A DNA stretch of 64,000 nucleotides from Sphingomonadaceae bacterium OTU29LAMAA1 (GTDB lineage Bacteria; Pseudomonadota; Alphaproteobacteria; Sphingomonadales; Sphingomonadaceae). The stretch covers positions 1,530,001 through 1,594,000 of the forward strand of contig CP099617.1 in assembly GCA_024072375.1 (NCBI GenBank), in the 5' to 3' direction. The notes below the pieces were generated by a model. It was given only the letters and a program-made list of their open reading frames with translations. It did no database searches and had not been told where the DNA came from. This document shows positions 50,914 through 62,500 of this stretch, piece by piece; position 1 is the stretch's first letter; each line of letters begins with the position of its first letter. A program made the translations under genes and the position numbers.

Positions 50914-51612
50914 TCACCAGGGCTCGTGGAAGGGCCGGACCTCGGCGAGGAAGGACCAGGCGTCGCGCGGCTGGTGCGCCAGGTGGAAGACTTCGGCCGC
51001 GACGGACGAGGGCGAGATGAAGAAGTCGTCCGCGACCTCAGGCCGCATCTCGCGCTGCCAGGGCACGTCGATGGAGGCGTCGATCACAAGATAGGCGACG
51101 TGCACGCCCTTTGGCCCGAGGTCCCGCGCGATGGCTTCCGCGAGTATTCTCTGCGCCGCCTTGGTCGGCGCGAAGCCGGCGAACTTGGCCCGACCGCGCT
51201 GTGCGGACGTGTTGCCGGTCACGATGATCGACCCCTCGCCTGCCGCGATCATCGAGGGCGCGACCAGCCGGGCGAGATGGAACAGCGCCATGGCGTTCAC
51301 CTCGAAGTTCCGTTGGAGCGTCGCCGCATCGATCTCCTGGAACGTTCCGAACGCGCCGCCGACGGCGTTGTGGACGACCACCTGCGGCATGCCGACGGCG
51401 GCCACCGCCCGCTCCAGCGCAGCCGGATCCGCGACGTCGCAGGGAACGGCAATCGACGACGGGATCTCGGCTTCGAGTTTGGCCAGCCGCTCTTCGTTGC
51501 GCGCCAGCATGGCGACCCGGTAGCCGCCTTCCGAGAAGCGGCGGGCGAGGGCCGTTCCCGTGCCCGGACCCACGCCGGTCACCAGCGCCAGTGGCTTTTC
51601 CTGCTCGGTCAT
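50914..51612 (-). CDS. SDR-fold protein lacking the catalytic tyrosine
   Basis: The 232-residue protein has the cofactor motif GVGPGTG and a VVHNAVGG segment, as in SDRs. The active-site region reads GNTSAQRGRAKFAGFAPTK, so Phe replaces the catalytic Tyr of YxxxK. The Lys is kept. It is therefore probably not a normal dehydrogenase; it may be a binding protein, a sensor or a reductase with a shifted site. The ATG overlaps the stop of the isomerase gene (ATGA). The next gene follows after 37 bases. Confidence 0.85.
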   Translation of the reverse strand: MTEQEKPLALVTGVGPGTGTALARRFSEGGYRVAMLARNEERLAKLEAEIPSSIAVPCDVADPAALERAVAAVGMPQVVVHNAVGGAFGTFQEIDAATLQRNFEVNAMALFHLARLVAPSMIAAGEGSIIVTGNTSAQRGRAKFAGFAPTKAAQRILAEAIARDLGPKGVHVAYLVIDASIDVPWQREMRPEVADDFFISPSSVAAEVFHLAHQPRDAWSFLAEVRPFHEPW

Positions 51613-52202
51613 GCCGCTTTATCTACTCGTTCGAGCTCGTCCCGGAGGAAGTCGATCCGGTCGTTTCCGAAGAACATCTCGTTCCCTACGAACATCGTCG
51701 GCGAGCCGAAGACGCCGCGGTCGGCAGCCTCCTGCGTGAACGCGTCCAGCCGCGCCGCCGTCTCCGGAATGTCGATCCGGGCGGAGACGCCGTCCGCGTC
51801 GATCCCGGCGTCCGCGATCGCCTGAATTATGTCGGCGGTGCCTGGCAGCGAACGGCCGCCCGTCCAGATCGCGCGGTACAAAGCCGAAGCGATCGCGACC
51901 GCCTGCGCTTCGTCCCGGGCGGCTAGAACGGCGCGTGCGCAGCCCTCGCCGTCCACGCTGCCCATGCCGGCGGGGTTGAGGGCGACGCCGACTCGACGCG
52001 ACCACCGCCCCAGGTCGGTGCGCGCGTGCCGCCCTTTCGCCTTGCAGGTAGTGGTGGTCGGCGTGTTCCCCACGCGCTCCATCAAGGCCAGGACCTTGAT
52101 CGGCTTGAGCTGGAGCTCGACCGCCAACGTCTGAAGTTGCACAAAGGCGAGGTAGCCATAGGGGCTGCGGAAGTCGAAATAGAGTTCGACGGTCCTGGTC
52201 AT
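51609..52202 (-). CDS. 2-Hydroxychromene-2-carboxylate isomerase-like (DsbA/GST-kappa fold)
   Basis: The 197-residue protein begins VELYFDFRSPYGYLAFVQLQ, the HCCA isomerase signature in which Ser in FRSP replaces the Cys pair. It ends with RGVFGSPTMFVGNEMFFGNDRIDFL. The family uses glutathione to isomerise ring-cleavage products of naphthalene-type aromatics. GGAGAACACG precedes the ATG. Its start overlaps the HxlR stop (ATGA), so regulator, isomerase, SDR and QOR are in one unit. Confidence 0.87.
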   Translation of the reverse strand: MTRTVELYFDFRSPYGYLAFVQLQTLAVELQLKPIKVLALMERVGNTPTTTTCKAKGRHARTDLGRWSRRVGVALNPAGMGSVDGEGCARAVLAARDEAQAVAIASALYRAIWTGGRSLPGTADIIQAIADAGIDADGVSARIDIPETAARLDAFTQEAADRGVFGSPTMFVGNEMFFGNDRIDFLRDELERVDKAA

Positions 52203-52699
52203 CGCGTGTTCTCCTTCCTGAAGCCGAGCAGTCGGTGCGTGCTCTCGTCGGCACCGGGTCCCGGGCGCAGCTCGATGCGGGTCGGCGAGACCGCCTGACC
52301 AGTCTCGCGGTCGACCATCGCCAGCTCGAGCGGCCGGCCGGTCTCGCGATCCGTTATCTCGATGGTGGCAGCGCCGAAGCCGGAGGCGTCCCAGCGGTCG
52401 CCCCATTCGCGAAGCGCGATGCTGACCTTCCAGAGATCGCGCCCCTTTGGGGTCAGGCGATACTCGTCCCGAGGCGGCCGCTCCTGATAGCGATCCCGAG
52501 TGAGGATTTCAGTCTCCTCCAGACGCTTTAGGCGTGCTGCCAGCGTTGCGGGCGGGATCCCCAGGCTTGTCCGCAGGTCGTCGTAGCGGGTCATCCCCAT
52601 CGAGAGATCGCGCACGATGAGCAGCGCCCACCTGTCGCCGATGAGCTCGAGAGCCCCGGCGATGGAGCAGCGCATCCCGACGAACGACTTGACCTTCAT
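52199..52699 (-). CDS. HxlR-family transcriptional regulator
   Basis: The 166-residue protein has a winged-helix region (CSIAGALELIGDRWALLIVRDL, then YDDLRTSLGIPPATLAARLKRLEETEIL, then YRLTPKGRDLW) and a 50-residue extension ending FRKENTR. A Cys at the N-terminal helix (GMRCSIAG) is the position used for redox sensing in many HxlR proteins. I choose the ATG at 52699. A palindrome lies 18 bases upstream, so it is probably autoregulated together with the operon. Confidence 0.88.
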   Translation of the reverse strand: MKVKSFVGMRCSIAGALELIGDRWALLIVRDLSMGMTRYDDLRTSLGIPPATLAARLKRLEETEILTRDRYQERPPRDEYRLTPKGRDLWKVSIALREWGDRWDASGFGAATIEITDRETGRPLELAMVDRETGQAVSPTRIELRPGPGADESTHRLLGFRKENTR

Positions 52700-52716
52700 G
52701 CGGTCGCCGTTAGCAG

Positions 52717-52731
52717 CTTCAATAATTGAAG
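52717..52731. promoter_or_regulatory. Palindromic operator before the HxlR-isomerase operon
   Basis: CTTCAATAATTGAAG has perfect 7-base arms around a central A. A third half-site (TTGAAG) follows at 52739-52744. It lies 18 bases in front of the HxlR start, where an autoregulatory operator would be expected. Confidence 0.6.
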
Positions 52732-52744
52732 TGAATAGTTGAAG

Positions 52745-53108
52745 TCGGCTGCTTCGATTGCGTAGGCCCAGCGTTGACAATTGGACTGGCGAGCGACTGC
52801 AGGCAGTCGGCCGGATTCATCGTCATCGCGACGCTAGCATCTATGAGGTGCACTGGCCTGACGCCAGGAAAGGCAACGCGCTCCAATGACACGCGCGCGC
52901 ATGGCAGCTGGGTGATCAGGGAGACGTCGAAATTTCGACCCCGCATGCATGCCTGCCGAACCAACGACGTGGTCGGGGCGGCTGGCAGCATGACACCGCG
53001 TCACTCGCGAACCCGTCCGTAGGCCCATACCCCTGCCTACCTTCGTATTGTTCCGCCGCACTGCCCGGAAAGCTAGTTTGACGGCAGCTTTCTACTCGGA
53101 GTTTCGCG
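52745..53108. other. Gap between the HxlR operon and the gene at 53109
   Basis: This 360-base stretch, with the operator before it, has no convincing gene. It holds TAC-N4-GTA site 6 and a TTGACA string near 52774 without a matching -10. The divergent promoters for both neighbours should be here. Confidence 0.45.
53038..53047. promoter_or_regulatory. TAC-N4-GTA palindrome, site 6
   Basis: TACCTTCGTA lies within CCTACCTTCGTATTGTTCC (53036-53054), which differs at one base from 27829-27847. It is 62 bases before the gene at 53109. On the minus strand it reads AATACGAAGGTAGG. Confidence 0.45.
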
Positions 53109-53828
53109 ATGGATGATCTCGTATCCACTCTCATCGAATCGCACGGCGGTCTCGCCCGCTGGCACAGCTTCGAGACCCTGACGGCCAGTCTGAAGCAGGG
53201 CGGCGCGCTATGGCAGTTAAAGGGAAAGTCCGGCGTGCTCGACGAGACGACCGTGACTGTCGGGCTCCGGCGCGAATGGGCCTCGCATGCTCCGTTCGGC
53301 GACCCGTCGCGCAAGACGGACTTTACACCTGGCCGGGTCGCGATCCTGTCGAGCAACGGCGACGTTCTGGATGAGCTGGAGCAGCCGCGCTCGTCCTTCG
53401 CAGGCCACACGCTCGAGACCCCCTGGACCGATCCCCAGCTCGCCTATTTCGCCGGAGAGGCCATGTGGACATACCTGAACCTGCCCTTCCTGCTGGCCGA
53501 GCCGGGGGTCGAGGCCGAAGAGATCGAGTCTTGGCAGGAAAGCGAGGAGAAATGGCGGCGGCTCAGGGTCAGGTTCCCCGCGAACATCTCCACCCATAGC
53601 ACCGAACAGATTCTCTATGTGGACGCGGCTGGGCTGCTCAAGCGGCATGACTACGACGTCGAGATCGCCGGCGGCACGCCGGGCGCGCACCTCATCTCCG
53701 AGTATCGCGAGGTGCAGGGCATCATGGTCCCGACCCGTCGGCGCATCTTCCCGCGCCAGCCTGACGGCCACGCGATGACCGACATGCTCGTGGTCTCGAT
53801 CGACCTCGACAACATCCATCTCGCCTGA
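53109..53828 (+). CDS. Hypothetical cytoplasmic protein, possibly LolA-fold-like
   Basis: The 239-residue protein has a beta-rich, all-antiparallel look: FETLTASLKQGGALWQLKGK, VTVGLRREW, FAGHTL, then RLRVRFPANISTHSTEQILYVD and KRHDYDVEIAGG. This resembles LolA/LppX-type folds, but there is no signal peptide, so I do not assert a lipid role. GGAG lies 8 bases before the ATG. The FAD oxidoreductase gene follows after 5 bases, so they form an operon. Confidence 0.7.
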   Translation: MDDLVSTLIESHGGLARWHSFETLTASLKQGGALWQLKGKSGVLDETTVTVGLRREWASHAPFGDPSRKTDFTPGRVAILSSNGDVLDELEQPRSSFAGHTLETPWTDPQLAYFAGEAMWTYLNLPFLLAEPGVEAEEIESWQESEEKWRRLRVRFPANISTHSTEQILYVDAAGLLKRHDYDVEIAGGTPGAHLISEYREVQGIMVPTRRRIFPRQPDGHAMTDMLVVSIDLDNIHLA

Positions 53829-53833
53829 TCGTC

Positions 53834-55504
53834 ATGGCCAGCGTTCTCCAGCCCCTGCCCACCGACGAGCCGCCGCACGCTCGCGAGGCGCAGATGTTTC
53901 CGCTTCTCGATGCGGCCACGATCGGCCGGCTCATGCCCTACGGCACGTTGGAGGACGCGGCAGAAGGTTCGGTGCTGTTCCGGCGCGGCGACAGGGCGGT
54001 CGACTTCTTCGTCGTGCTCGCCGGCTCGATCGAGCTGCTCGACCAGGTCGACGGCGGCGCACCGACCCGGTTTCGCGCCTACGTCGCGGGTCAGTTCAGC
54101 GGAGAGCTGCACCTGTTTAACGAGCGGTCCCTGCTCGTGACGGGACGTGCGACCGCCGACTCGCGGGTGCTTCGCATCCGACGTGCCGAGTTCCGAAACA
54201 TGGTGTCGACCGAGGCGGACATCGGAGAGACGATCATGCGGGCCTTCATCCTGCGCCGCGTGGAACTGATCGCAACCGGTCACGGCGCGGTAACGATCGT
54301 CGGCTCGTCGCATGCGGCGCAGACCCATCGGGTGCGCGCCTTCCTCTCGCGCAATGCGCATCCCTACCGCCTTCTCGATGTCGATGATGATCCCGATGCG
54401 CTGACCGCGTTCGAGGAATTCGCGCTGTCACCGAACGACCTGCCGCTTATGATACTGCCCGACGGAGAGACGCTACGCTCGCCCAGCCCTGCAGATATCG
54501 CGACCGCGCTCGGCATCAGCGAGGAACATGATCCAGCGGCAGTCTACGACGTCGCCGTGATCGGAGCAGGACCCGCAGGTCTCGCCGCATCAGTATATGC
54601 AGCTTCCGAGGGGCTGGCCACGATCGCGATCGAGGGCGACGCGCCCGGTGGCCAGGCGAGCACCAGCAGCAGGATCGAGAACTACCTTGGATTTCCGACC
54701 GGCATCTCGGGTCAGGCGCTGGCCGGACGCGCTCAGGTGCAGGCGCAGAAGTTCGGAGCACGACTGGCGGTTTCCCGGGAAGTGGTGGCGCTCGACTGTT
54801 CCGCACGCCCGTACCAGCTGACGCTGGAGGGTGGAGAGTCGATCCGGGCGACGTCTGTCGTAATCGCCACCGGCGCGCGCTACCGGCGCTTATCCCTGCC
54901 GGGCTATGTTCAACTGGAAGGGCGCGGCGTCTACTACGCGGCGACGCCGATGGAGGCGCAGCTGTGTGCCGAGCGCGAGGTCATCGTGGTCGGTGGCGGC
55001 AACTCGGCGGGCCAGGCGGCAGTGTTCCTCTCGCGATCCTGCCGCCACGTGCACGTCCTTGTCCGGTCGGAGGGCTTGGCCGCGACGATGTCGGACTACC
55101 TCGTGCAGCGGATCGACAGGTCGCCCGACATCACGCTTCATCCGTTCACCGAGGTGACCGAGGTGGAAGGGGACGGCTACCTCACCCACGTCACTTGGAC
55201 GGATAGGCGATCCGGGCAGTCGGAAAGGCGCGCGATCGGCAGCCTGTTCGTGATGATCGGCGCCGAGCCCAACACCGGCTGGCTTCGCGGGTGTGTCCCG
55301 CTGGACGCGGCGGGCTTCGTCAGAACGGGACATGCCGACGACGGGACACCCCTCGCCTCACCCTATGCAACCGCGCTTCCCGGCGTGTTCGCAGTCGGCG
55401 ACGTTCGATCGGGCTCGGTCAAGCGGGTCGCGTCGGGAGTCGGAGAAGGATCGGTGGTGATCTCCGCAGTGCATCAGGCGCTCGCGGATCTGGTCACCCC
55501 ATGA
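53834..55504 (+). CDS. cNMP-binding domain fused to thioredoxin-reductase-like FAD oxidoreductase
   Basis: The 556-residue protein has three parts. An N-terminal cyclic-nucleotide-binding domain (about 18-130, FRRGDRAVDFFVVLAGSIEL) lacks a DNA-binding helix. A thioredoxin-like linker (about 150-230) has no CxxC. A thioredoxin-reductase-like domain (about 235-556) has GAGPAGLAASVYAASEG, the TRIENYLGFP-type motif SRIENYLGFP, VVGGGNSAGQAAVFLS and FAVGDV. The redox CxxC of true reductases is absent (the region reads YYAATPMEAQL). It is an oxidoreductase of unknown substrate that may be regulated by ligand binding. Confidence 0.87.
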   Translation: MASVLQPLPTDEPPHAREAQMFPLLDAATIGRLMPYGTLEDAAEGSVLFRRGDRAVDFFVVLAGSIELLDQVDGGAPTRFRAYVAGQFSGELHLFNERSLLVTGRATADSRVLRIRRAEFRNMVSTEADIGETIMRAFILRRVELIATGHGAVTIVGSSHAAQTHRVRAFLSRNAHPYRLLDVDDDPDALTAFEEFALSPNDLPLMILPDGETLRSPSPADIATALGISEEHDPAAVYDVAVIGAGPAGLAASVYAASEGLATIAIEGDAPGGQASTSSRIENYLGFPTGISGQALAGRAQVQAQKFGARLAVSREVVALDCSARPYQLTLEGGESIRATSVVIATGARYRRLSLPGYVQLEGRGVYYAATPMEAQLCAEREVIVVGGGNSAGQAAVFLSRSCRHVHVLVRSEGLAATMSDYLVQRIDRSPDITLHPFTEVTEVEGDGYLTHVTWTDRRSGQSERRAIGSLFVMIGAEPNTGWLRGCVPLDAAGFVRTGHADDGTPLASPYATALPGVFAVGDVRSGSVKRVASGVGEGSVVISAVHQALADLVTP

Positions 55505-55536
55505 CGAGCCCGACAGGATTTCAAGAGGACAATACC

Positions 55537-56400
55537 ATGGCAGACTACGATTCGACAGCCGAGAACGCGGTCACGACCCCCACCCGCTTCGTCGAGGCGT
55601 CGAACGGCGTCCGATACGCATACCGTCGGTTCGGTTCCGGTCCAGCGGTGCCGCTGGTGATGCTGCCGCGCTTCCGAGGAGACCTCGAGACCTGGGATCC
55701 GCCGCTGCTGGACCGCTTCGCAGAAAACCGTGAGGTGATCCTCGTCAACAATCGCGGCGTCAGCACCACCAGCGGAACGACGCCGTCGACCATCACCGCG
55801 ATGGCGCACGACCTCATCGCCTTCCTCGAAGCCCTGTCGCTCGATAAGGTGGACCTCCTCGGCTTCTCGCTCGGCGGCTTCGTCGCTCAGGAGTTGGTGC
55901 TGATCCGGCCTGATCTGGTGCGCAGGCTGGTACTTGCCGCCACGGGTCCGCGGGGCGGTCCTCAGATGCATGGATGGCGCAAGGACATTGCGGACGCGGT
56001 CCGCAAAGACGAACCCGGCCCGGAGGAACTCCTCTACACCTTTTTCAAGCCGACCGAGACAAGCCAGGCCGCCGGACGCGCCTACCTCGGCCGCTTCATG
56101 GCCCGGACACAGGATCGCGACGCGCCCAGCAGCCTCCAGACCCGCAACGCGCACTATGACGCCGTCTGCGACTGGGGCGTGGAGGATCATTCCAGGCTGC
56201 AGCGCCTCCGGAGCATAGACCAACCGACCTTCGTGGCGAACGGCGATGCGGACGCGATGATCCCGCCGCACCTTACGCACCTTCTCGGCGGGCTGATCCC
56301 GGATGCGACCGTCAAGATCTACCCCGACGCCGGTCACGGCTTCCTCTTTCAGCACCATCGCGAGTTCGGCGAGGACGTCACCGGCTTCCTCGACACCTGA
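55537..56400 (+). CDS. Alpha/beta hydrolase, paralogue of the gene at 39665
   Basis: The 287-residue protein shares RYAYRRFG, LETWDPPLLDRF, NNRGVSTTSG, GFSLGGFVAQE (Ser nucleophile) and the closing SG/AGHGF with the product of 39665. Asp is in NGDADAMI. The oxyanion segment is altered (LPRFRGD), again like its paralogue, so the pair form a diverged subgroup. The ATG at 55537 follows CAAGAGGAC. It lies 32 bases after the FAD oxidoreductase gene, suggesting one operon. Confidence 0.85.
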   Translation: MADYDSTAENAVTTPTRFVEASNGVRYAYRRFGSGPAVPLVMLPRFRGDLETWDPPLLDRFAENREVILVNNRGVSTTSGTTPSTITAMAHDLIAFLEALSLDKVDLLGFSLGGFVAQELVLIRPDLVRRLVLAATGPRGGPQMHGWRKDIADAVRKDEPGPEELLYTFFKPTETSQAAGRAYLGRFMARTQDRDAPSSLQTRNAHYDAVCDWGVEDHSRLQRLRSIDQPTFVANGDADAMIPPHLTHLLGGLIPDATVKIYPDAGHGFLFQHHREFGEDVTGFLDT

Positions 56401-59271: not shown

Positions 59272-59904
59272 TCAGCTGGGGGGGCAGCGGGCGCCCGTCT
59301 CGATCCACGCTTGGGTCAACGCCCCGAACTCCTCCTGCGTACCCGGCGCAGGCTTTCGGCCGACGCCCGGATGCCAGGCCCAGCCAACCAGCTTGTCCTT
59401 GCCGTGATGCTCGACTAGGTCGGCAAGCGTCTTGTGCCCGTTACGGGCCGGATTCTTGATCTGCCGACAGATCTCGCCGAGCGTCTTGCCCTGCCAGGCC
59501 ATCTCGATCGGCGCGAGATGCCAGTTCGGATTGCCGGGAATGCTGCCCCTACCGTTCGCGAACACGACGTTGGCGGGACCGTGACATGTTGCGCATTCCA
59601 GCCCGGGCGCTCCCTGGCCTTCGGGTCCGCGGGTCACGGCGGGCTCATGAGGGACGAACGCATCGGTCTGTGTCGGCCGGTCGGTACGAGGGTGGCAGTT
59701 CATGCACCTGGGGCTCTGGATCACCTTGCCCATTTCGGTGAACAGCGCCTGGGACCGACGCGCGGGATCCCGGATGTCGGCGAACGCTCCGACCGGCTTC
59801 AGCTGGTCCCCGACAACCATGGGCGCGGTGTCGGCACCGCGCGCCAGGATGGCGACCGGCAGCGTCAGCGCCGAAGCGAGCAGCATAGGTAGGCCGAAGC
59901 GCAT
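59272..59904 (-). CDS. Di-haem cytochrome c subunit (isoquinoline 1-oxidoreductase type)
   Basis: The 210-residue protein has a signal peptide ([23 protein letters not shown]) and two haem c sites, CMNCH and CATCH, with a nearby Met in IEMAW that could be an axial ligand. It is the periplasmic electron acceptor usually encoded behind iorAB-like genes. Its ATG overlaps the stop of the molybdenum subunit gene (TGATG), so all three genes are coupled. Confidence 0.87.
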   Translation of the reverse strand: MRFGLPMLLASALTLPVAILARGADTAPMVVGDQLKPVGAFADIRDPARRSQALFTEMGKVIQSPRCMNCHPRTDRPTQTDAFVPHEPAVTRGPEGQGAPGLECATCHGPANVVFANGRGSIPGNPNWHLAPIEMAWQGKTLGEICRQIKNPARNGHKTLADLVEHHGKDKLVGWAWHPGVGRKPAPGTQEEFGALTQAWIETGARCPPS

Positions 59905-62042
59905 CAGACGTTACTCTCGTGGGCGAAGGGAAGACGTCGGACGCTTCGTCCAGTGAGCCGTCGCCAAGCGTTCGCCACCGCTGGCGCGATCGGCGGGAGA
60001 CCTGGTTCGCCGACCCCGGTCGGCTTCTCCTCGGAGGCGATCACCGCGACCTCAACGTCGGGCATCTCGCCGATGCGGAGCGAGCGGTAGTCGTGGAAGT
60101 TGCTCTGCATGACTTGCCCGCCCTCCCCGAGCGTCAGGTCCCCATAGAGCGCATGGCCAAGGCCATACCCGATCCCGCCCTCCATCTGAGCGCGGATGAC
60201 GTTGGGGTTGATCGGCACGCCGCAGTCCACCGCGCACCAGACCTTATGTACGCGCGGCAGGCCGTTCGCCCGGCGCGACACCTCCGCGATCTGTGCGACA
60301 TAAGTCCCGAAGCTGCGGTGCATCGCCACGCCGAACGATCTGCCCGCCGCGGGTGGACGCCCCCAATCCGCCAGTTCGGCGACGCGTCGCAGGACGCCCT
60401 GCCCCCGCGAATCCTTCATTCGCGCGAGCCGCCCTGACACGGGGTCCTTGCCGCCGAGCTGCAGGAGTTCGTCAACAAAGGTCTCGACCGTATAGGCGGT
60501 GTGCGTGTTGCCCACCGACCGCCACCAGAGCGGCGGCACGGGACTTTGCATGACATGCACGCCGACACGGTGATTGTCCCAGTGGTAGCTGCTCTCGGTC
60601 GCTCCCTCGACCATGGTCGCATCCACACCGTTCTTCACCGCCACCGCCTCCATCGGCGACCCTACGAAGATCGATTGGCCAGCGATCACCTGATCCCAGG
60701 CGATGATGTCACCGTCACGATTCAGCCCCCCGCGCAGCTTGTGCACGAATATGGGTCGGTAGCGCCCTCCGGTGATGTCGTTCTCTCGCGTCCATACGAA
60801 CTTGACCGGGGCGTTTGGATAGGCTGCCGCCGCGGCGCCGGCCTCGGTCGCGAAGTCCATGTTCGGTGTGGCGCGACGGCCGAACGAGCCTCCCGCGAAC
60901 TGCTCGTGCAGCGTGACAGCCTCGGCCGGCAGATCCATGGAAGCGGCGATCGCCGCCATGTCGCCCGCCTGCCATTGGCTCCCCATCCACACGTCGGCGC
61001 GGTCACCGCGACGCTCGATCACCGCGTCGAGCGTTTCCATCGGTGCGTGTGCGAGGAAGGGGAAGACGTATGTTGCCTCTAGCGTTCGGGTCGCCGAGGC
61101 GAGAGCTGCCGCCGCGTCTCCCGTCTTCTCCGCTTCCTTGCCCGGGCTGGCCGCGGCGGCAGCCCACGTTCTGATGATCTCCTCGCTCGATCTGGTCTCG
61201 GCGGCCGACAGGTCCCAGTCTACCGTCAGCGCGGCCTTCCCCCGCATCGCCGGGTACGTCCCCTCGGCGTAGACCACGACGCCCTGCGGCACCACTTCCA
61301 CCGCCACGACGCCCGGCACGGCGAGAGCCGGCGCCTTGTCGACCGATCGGACCCGCCCGCCGAACGAGGGCGGGTGAAGTATCGTCGCGGTGACCATGCC
61401 GGGGCGCATGATGTCGACCGTGAACACGGCGCTCCCATCGCTCTTCGCGACGCTGTCGAGCTTGGGCAGGTCCTTGCCGATGAGCGTCCAGCGGTCCGGC
61501 GTCTTCAGCACGGGCTTGTCGGGTACAGGGAGCCGCGCAGCCGCCTCGGCTAGCTCGCCGAAACGGGCGGTCCGGCCCCCGTGCGAGACGAGGCCGCGCG
61601 ACACGGTCACCTCGCCAATGGGCACGCCCCAGCGCCGAGCCGCAGCCTCGACCAGCATCGCGCGTGCCGCAGCGCCGGCGGAGCGCATCTGGATCCAGCT
61701 GTTCGCCATGGCGGTCGAGCCGCCCGTCCCCATCGTGCCGAAGATCAGGTTCTTGTAGAGCGGATCGTTGGCCGGAGCGAACGCCATGCGCATCTGCGAC
61801 CAGTCCGCGTCGAGCTCGTCCGCGACCATCGTGGTGAGACCCGTCGAAGGGCCCTGACCGAACTCGACGTGCTTGATGATCACAGTAACGCTGTCGTCCT
61901 GCGCGATCCGGACGAAGGCGTTGGGTGCGAAGGACGCGGACGCCTTCGGCATCGCGGCAGCACGCCGTCCCATCGGGACAGCGAAGCCGATGACCAGCGC
62001 CGCAGCCCCGATGAACTCCCGTCGCGAGGTTTGAGTAGTCAT
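59904..62042 (-). CDS. Molybdopterin-binding subunit of an isoquinoline 1-oxidoreductase-type aldehyde oxidase
   Basis: The 712-residue large subunit has a Tat leader ([16 protein letters not shown]) and two xanthine-dehydrogenase-type molybdopterin domains. Segments such as [36 protein letters not shown] and [16 protein letters not shown] with its conserved Glu are clear. It should hydroxylate N-heterocycles or oxidise aldehydes in the periplasm. The start at 62042 overlaps the stop of the iron-sulphur subunit (ATGA). An FAD subunit is absent, as in the IorAB type, which passes electrons to cytochrome c. Confidence 0.93.
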
Positions 62043-62500
62043 GCCCCCACCTCCGCCGCGGCGTTCTGGATCGCCTGCTTGATGCGGACGTACGTTGCAC
62101 AGCGGCAAATATTACCGGTCATCGCATGGTCGATGTCCTCGTTGGTGGGCCTTGACTTGACGGCGAGCAGGCCGGCGGCCGACATGATCTGTCCTGATTG
62201 ACAGAAGCCGCACTGAGGTACGTCAATTGCCACCCATGCCTTCTTCAGCGCTGCGGCGGCCGGGCCGGTCAAGCCCTCGATGGTCGTGACGCTCCGTCCA
62301 GCGACTGTAGCGACGGGCGTGACGCAGGACCGCCGGTTCTTGCCGTCAAGGTGCACCGTGCACGCTCCGCACTGAGCCACCCCGCACCCGTATTTGGTAC
62401 CGGTGAGGTGCATCGTGTCCCGCAGGACCCAGAGCAAAGGCGTGTCCGGATCGCCCTCGAAGCGCGCCGATCTGCCGTTCAGGATGAATTCTGTTGCCAC
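62039..62500 (-). CDS. [2Fe-2S] subunit of the molybdoenzyme
   Basis: The 153-residue protein has both iron-sulphur clusters: the plant-type motif [17 protein letters not shown] and the second GFCQSGQIM with [15 protein letters not shown]. It accepts electrons from the molybdenum centre. I choose GTG at 62500 (VATEFILNG), with GAGG 5 bases upstream. Export would occur by hitchhiking with the Tat-leader subunit. A near match to TAC-N4-GTA (CATACTTCGGCA) lies at about 62557-62568, upstream of this gene. Confidence 0.9.

Follow-up and report, generated by a model that had tools for sequence, protein, structure and literature searches.

Here we present an analysis of a 556-residue protein encoded in a 64,000-nucleotide stretch of DNA from Sphingomonadaceae bacterium OTU29LAMAA1 (the window), in which a Crp-type cyclic nucleotide-binding (cNMP) domain and a glutaredoxin-fold linker precede a thioredoxin reductase (TrxR)-like FAD/NAD(P) core that has lost its CxxC. 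The protein fits the definition of a single clade, built from a cNMP or receiver (REC) domain, a glutaredoxin-fold linker and a CxxC-less core, and judged by sequence it does not stand out within its subfamily, its core being 68% identical to that of locus L019. Databases name this family a thioredoxin-disulfide reductase (NCBI product name, "cyclic nucleotide-binding domain-containing thioredoxin-disulfide reductase"), yet the defining dithiol is gone across the six-phylum clade. As a tentative reading, we propose that the window protein is a signal-gated NAD(P)H:FAD oxidoreductase that would feed a partner disulfide through a single cysteine, C378. Should turnover be controlled by cyclic nucleotide or phosphorylation, the family would be a rare case in which second-messenger or two-component signalling is wired straight to cellular redox enzymes. 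It also raises the question of how a TrxR fold might reduce a disulfide when it has a single cysteine or lacks cysteines altogether. The window feature already belongs to a widespread, little-studied family with one probably characterised relative, and the interest lies in the chemistry and signalling partners of that family, not in the window copy itself.

Domain organization and the lost active site

Table 1. Coordinates in the window of the flavoprotein gene, its domains and motifs, and the adjoining genes.
Feature	Position	Strand	Evidence or remark
239-aa ORF	53109..53828	+	ends 5 bases before the flavoprotein gene; no Pfam or NCBIfam match
cNMP–glutaredoxin-like linker–CxxC-less thioredoxin-reductase-like flavoprotein	53834..55504	+	ATG-start ORF, 556 aa
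cNMP_binding (Crp-type) domain, residues 43-126	53960..54211	+	Pfam E 1.2e-12; PDB sequence matches
Glutaredoxin-fold linker without Cys, residues 148-235	54275..54538	+	AF2, cGrx1, Mrx1 profile
TrxR-like FAD/NAD(P) core, residues 238-539	54545..55450	+	Pfam Pyr_redox_2 E 9.9e-35; TrxR structures
FAD dinucleotide motif GAGPAG (244-249)	54563..54580	+	sequence; conserved columns
Lost CxxC site YYAATPMEAQLC (367-378), including E374 and C378	54932..54967	+	TrxR alignment; conservation
NAD(P) dinucleotide motif GGGNSA (387-392)	54992..55009	+	sequence; conserved columns
Alpha/beta hydrolase	55501..56400	+	ATG at 55501 overlaps the flavoprotein stop codon (ATGA); another ATG at 55537

In the TrxR fold, hydride passes from NAD(P)H to FAD. 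The Asp after the CxxC is a catalytic residue in E. coli TrxR, and the HRRxxxR stretch of TrxR is the 2'-phosphate site of NADPH. In the PDB, the core of the window protein found its best sequence match in a thioredoxin reductase, at E 2.1e-47, with matches to TrxR-like ferredoxin reductases beginning at E 4e-16, and the AF2 model of the protein (pLDDT 85.7; alignment of 66 rows, comprising the window protein and 65 of 80 loci) matched TrxR structures with Z about 30. Scores against three NCBIfam models fell below the curated cut-offs: 224.5 bits for TIGR01292, the NADPH-dependent thioredoxin reductase (cut-off 343.45), 168.4 bits for TIGR03140, AhpF (502.9), and 55.8 bits for TIGR04018, the YpdA bacillithiol disulfide reductase (339.9). 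YpdA and the TrxR-like ferredoxin-NADP reductase also have a TrxR fold without CxxC and carry no sensor or glutaredoxin domain; both appear far less similar to the window protein than TrxR is.

When the genome's own TrxR GVSACATCDGFFYRGKKV was aligned with the window protein GVYYAATPMEAQLCAEREV, both active-site Cys positions were occupied by other residues, A369 and M373, while the Asp after the CxxC corresponded to E374, the FF pair to Q376-L377 and the next Tyr to C378. There is no CxxC anywhere in the protein, which has four cysteines in all (322, 378, 403 and 487), and the original prediction that the redox-active pair is missing was thus borne out. It had also described the flavin and NAD(P) motifs as intact; this holds for GAGPAG and GGGNSA, but the HRRxxxR stretch after the NAD(P) motif is reduced to VRSEGLA, with one Arg left. 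The window protein therefore shares the fold and both dinucleotide motifs with the TIGR01292 reductases and AhpF, but differs from them in the absence of the CxxC and the FF pair and in the reduced HRRxxxR. The FF pair is described as the thioredoxin-docking motif of TrxR in the accessible part of one report (PMC9025218).

Superposition of the model gave rmsd 3.0 and Z 30.9 against 5mh4 (labelled FR) and rmsd 5.2 and Z 29.1 against the L. lactis structure 5mjk (labelled FO). Reading a conformation from the model was dropped, because 5w4c, also labelled FO, fits nearly as well (rmsd 3.4) as the FR-labelled 5mh4.

The two N-terminal regions agree with what had been predicted from the letters alone, namely a Crp-type ligand domain followed by a thioredoxin-like linker without cysteines. 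The cNMP domain matched cNMP domains in the PDB by sequence search, and conservation analysis indicated that GE (90-91) and R98 are retained in its phosphate-cassette region. The linker is Cys-free, and its thioredoxin fold is of the glutaredoxin type: the AF2 model (59-row alignment, pLDDT 84.7) superposed on cGrx1 with Z 12.0 and rmsd 1.4 over 73 aligned residues. A Foldseek search with this model gave a best E-value of just 1.7e-3, for Mrx1, and the linker profile also found mycoredoxin Mrx1 (E 7.8e-4); the Pfam Glutaredoxin match was weak in the window protein (0.03) and better in a Nostoc homologue (C052, 1.6e-5). In the family alignment, the linker is Cys-free in 15 of the 89 near rows and in 9 of the 36 more distant ones. 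Among the 36, C208 and C225 tend to travel together, with both present in 14 rows, neither in 19 and C208 only in 3.

Distribution, phylogeny and conserved residues

The original prediction that similar three-part proteins occur in other bacteria proved correct: members are common, being present in 29 of 299 sampled Pseudomonadota genomes. A REC-type query of the same 299 genomes returned the same 29, and none of the matches listed covers the receiver. The clade spans six sampled phyla, Pseudomonadota, Actinomycetota, Deinococcota, Cyanobacteriota, Gemmatimonadota and Myxococcota, the last recovered by a search of loci and the four before it from plasmid records. Three architectures are built on one linker and core, with a cNMP domain, a receiver or neither (L133, L135 and L136) as input, and Response_reg matched all ten fetched REC-type proteins. 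These REC-thioredoxin reductase response regulators have the same linker and core as the window protein and fall into one group with the cNMP type, but in them the receiver replaces the cNMP domain and a kinase gene adjoins. In a genome of the same genus as the host, two members (G025:C1:3017041-3018475 and 1611954-1612890) are each split into two overlapping matches, possibly through frameshifts or sequencing errors.

A tree was built from 44 hand-chosen rows, for which the tree tool warned of long branches. The 33 CxxC-less rows formed one group (support 100/100), as did the REC-type rows (93/85), and the cNMP label required three changes, one Streptomyces row that matched neither the cNMP nor the REC model being scored cNMP by default. 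Because the CxxC-less rows form a single group, the CxxC appears, on this sequence comparison, to have been lost once, and the input domain to have been exchanged. The glutaredoxin-TrxR fusion of Ilyobacter polytropus (L139, 2989-4194) likely gives a picture of the ancestral architecture; like the window protein it has a glutaredoxin domain before the TrxR core, but its CPYC and CATC are both intact and it has no input domain.

E374 and C378 were unchanged in all 125 rows of the near-family alignment (124 distinct genes, L082 and L100 being one gene entered twice; the 36 more distant rows represent 35 genes), which argues that the loss of the CxxC is not a matter of chance. Only two CxxC strings occurred in these rows (L022 and L077), both outside the active site. 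Across the wider clade, 29 of 33 rows have C378 and 32 have E374. C378 is replaced by V in D. aetherius, by T in P. aromaticivorans and in Deinococcus QL22, and by A in one Streptomyces protein, which also supplies the sole E374 exception (D); the four C378-less members fall in three separate places on the tree. The 555-residue D. aetherius protein contains a single Cys. The idea that C378 is catalytic throughout the clade was accordingly rejected, members without it being known.

Genomic neighbourhoods

In the window, the 239-aa ORF, the flavoprotein gene and the hydrolase gene likely share one transcript. Neither the ORF nor the hydrolase has a counterpart at the other fetched loci, and no trxA, cNMP-domain histidine kinase or zf-UBP gene lies beside the window copy. 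Two gene groups on the minus strand of the window were also observed. At 50914-52780, genes for an SDR, a DsbA-family oxidoreductase and an HxlR-type regulator adjoin one another and possibly make up another redox-linked group neighbouring the flavoprotein gene. At 59272-62108, the end of a 734-aa protein that, by eye, reads like a molybdenum hydroxylase large subunit is adjoined by a 210-aa protein bearing two CxxCH motifs of the haem-binding type.

A conserved operon partner for the window's subfamily was considered and rejected, since the recurring neighbours were each limited to a subset of loci, with a DUF3297 gene downstream in 19, a 128-aa ORF upstream in 16 and scattered zf-UBP genes. 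Also rejected was an EcfG-type stress promoter upstream; GGAAC-N15-19-GTT, which we take to be its motif, was found at 1 of 123 loci and in 30 of 2460 random stretches (whose draws are not exactly repeatable), and there is therefore no sign of such a promoter.

The host carries a paralogue (G000:C2:2108346-2110234, about 7850-9735 of L140, minus strand) that is 46% identical to the window protein and has a linker Cys pair. The host's only zf-UBP gene starts inside the paralogue's stop codon (ATGA), and a histidine-kinase-like stretch lies about 2 kb away on the other strand. In the near family, a zf-UBP gene accompanies at least 23 of 123 distinct loci, one at 1.3 kb and the rest within 450 bases, the count being a lower bound because the flanks extend up to 8 kb at some loci and about 1.5 kb at others. 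A survey of the host and 60 relatives showed zf-UBP in 10 of the 61 genomes, each of which is one of the 21 that carry a family match of E 1e-60 or better. The overlap has P 4e-6 on the assumption of independent genomes, an assumption that does not hold. By coordinate comparison, 5 of the 11 zf-UBP hits in these genomes lie within about 100 bases of a family member.

Beside the REC-type genes, a downstream gene for a histidine kinase of the cNMP-HATPase type starts no more than about 50 bases away at 9 of 10 loci; at the tenth, from Nostoc edaphicum, it is 2.6 kb away, past a transposase gene. These kinases carry a cNMP domain of their own (domains checked in three), and the phospho-acceptor motifs DDDP, D-x-RMP, LLTAYADT and KPW are kept in all ten receivers; the receiver is probably phosphorylated by the neighbouring cNMP-domain kinase. 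In Tsukamurella, S. fungicidicus and N. farcinica NCTC 11134, a zf-UBP gene is the third in the REC-kinase operon. Two cNMP-domain-type histidine kinases surround the REC-TrxR gene at each of three loci (L130, 588-1967 and 6233-7633; L189, 3484-4914 and 6659-8062; L194, 2439-3812 and 5659-7038), which suggests a two-kinase input. In all three actinobacterial cNMP-type loci fetched, grpE-J-cbpM-clpB-trxA lies directly upstream, with dnaK in two; the third stretch ends before its place.

Proposed electron exit from the flavin core

The original prediction regarded the reaction of such proteins as not known, which is too strong, a probable relative having been reported to reduce both DTNB and thioredoxin. 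According to the accessible part of that report (PLoS One, PMC6544261), ATII-TrxR, from the Atlantis II brine pool and purified in 2019, is a dimeric protein of 552 aa that combines a Crp/cNMP domain with a TrxB domain and shares 87% identity with a protein of C. metallidurans. Its kcat is given as 5.6 per s with DTNB and 28.4 per s with its thioredoxin (Km 1.03 uM), and it takes NADPH or NADH with Km values of 5.2 and 4.2 uM. Cysteines 206-223 and 376-467 were drawn as redox centres on a model, and the enzyme was classed as a high-Mr TrxR; that part of the report contains no remark on the CxxC, no Cys mutants and no assay of control by a ligand (PMC6544261).

The C. metallidurans homologue (L096, trimmed) has no CxxC and has Cys at 206, 223 and 376, three of the four named in the paper; the fourth, 467, is unmatched in the trimmed sequence, the nearest being 462. 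Cys 376 aligns with C378 of the window protein. Because its named cysteines fit this CxxC-less homologue, ATII-TrxR very probably belongs to the clade, as judged by sequence. Both resemble the window protein in joining a cNMP domain to an FAD/NAD(P) core, but the homologue is only 46% identical to it, and the window protein lacks the linker pair 206/223. The original prediction had named a CxxC elsewhere in the active site, or normal thioredoxin reduction, as evidence against itself. Thioredoxin reduction is reported for the relative (PMC6544261, accessible part) but does not carry over to the window protein, because the homologue has the linker Cys pair and the window protein does not.

In the literature outside subscription papers, our search found ATII-TrxR only for the cNMP type, one sentence on REC-TrxR, and no remark on the family's missing CxxC. 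The sentence, in the accessible part of PMC5847659, notes that two Heimdallarchaeota have a REC-thioredoxin reductase resembling that of Mycobacterium. The accessible parts of reviews of Deinococcus and cyanobacterial thiol systems make no mention of cyclic nucleotide or cNMP, and that of a Magnetospirillum paper has nothing on the CxxC-less family; an S. melonis EcfG paper, in its accessible part, mentions a thioredoxin reductase, for which no tie to the family was established.

In the signal-gated oxidoreductase that we tentatively propose, the input domain, Crp-type here and a receiver in relatives, would control the TrxR-derived flavin core through the glutaredoxin-fold linker. Hydride would pass from NAD(P)H to FAD, and electrons would leave the flavin for a partner disulfide, most likely that of a thioredoxin-type protein, via the single C378, located where the helix that formerly bore the CxxC ends, with E374 assisting. 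The exit to a disulfide, probably of thioredoxin, is suggested by the reported activity of the relative and by the trxA neighbours, and the Km values of ATII-TrxR for NADPH and NADH fit the loss of two of the three 2'-phosphate Arg positions. For the window copy itself, we infer the gating, the choice of cofactor, the C378 exit and the thioredoxin partner. Consistent with the proposal are the invariance of C378 and E374 in the near family (125/125), the single CxxC-less group, the swapped input domains, the REC phospho-acceptor motif, the cNMP-domain kinase neighbours and the clpB-trxA operons. Against an exit through C378 to thioredoxin stand the four C378-less rows of the clade, the loss of the FF docking motif, the absence here of linker cysteines of the ATII-TrxR type (206, 223) and a window neighbourhood with no trxA, kinase or zf-UBP gene.

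The single Cys of the D. aetherius protein and the four C378-less rows imply that some members have a core for which a thiol relay is dispensable. A serious, though less likely, alternative is that the reduced flavin gives its electrons straight to an acceptor other than a thiol (quinone, O2, ferredoxin or a nitro compound), in the manner of the TrxR-fold ferredoxin reductases, with C378 structural or regulatory. The clade-wide loss of the CxxC, the absence of C378 from 4 of 33 rows, one of them with a single Cys, and the Cys-free linkers (15/89 near and 9/36 more distant rows) are in line with such a transfer. Invariance of C378 in the 125 near rows is not, nor is a core closer to TrxR (E 2e-47) than to the TrxR-like ferredoxin reductases (best 4e-16), nor the reduction of thioredoxin and DTNB reported for the probable relative (PMC6544261, accessible part).

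Also to be taken seriously, though unlikely, is a pseudo-enzyme or redox switch, in which the core would respond to NAD(P)H or oxidants and signal through its conformation to a partner such as the zf-UBP protein or the chaperones. The FAD and NAD(P) motifs are kept, turnover is reported for the relative ATII-TrxR (PMC6544261, accessible part), and the window copy has no zf-UBP neighbour; on the other side, the input domains and the kinase partner are typical of signalling proteins, zf-UBP genes accompany at least 23 of 123 loci, the 10 of 61 genomes that have one all fall within the 21 with a family match of E 1e-60 or better, and the genome's only zf-UBP gene overlaps the paralogue's stop codon. 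Quite unlikely, in our estimate, is a history in which a glutaredoxin-TrxR fusion was converted once to a signalling output. Both thiol centres would have decayed, a cNMP or phosphorylated receiver domain would gate the flavin core, and zf-UBP and chaperone partners would read the NAD(P)H-driven change of conformation in place of any thiol exchange; the clearest cases of this would be the C378-less members, among them the Cys-poor D. aetherius protein.

A disulfide reductase that uses the distant, lineage-specific pair C322-C487 instead of the CxxC is improbable. Of the 89 near rows, 87 have the two residues together; of the 36 more distant ones, 17 have both, 13 neither, 6 C487 alone and none C322 alone (P 1.2e-5, ignoring kinship). 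But both are absent from the REC-type and actinobacterial members, and the pair is therefore not the common mechanism of the clade. On the sequences compared, C322/C487 and C208/C225 are lineage features and not a clade-wide relay.
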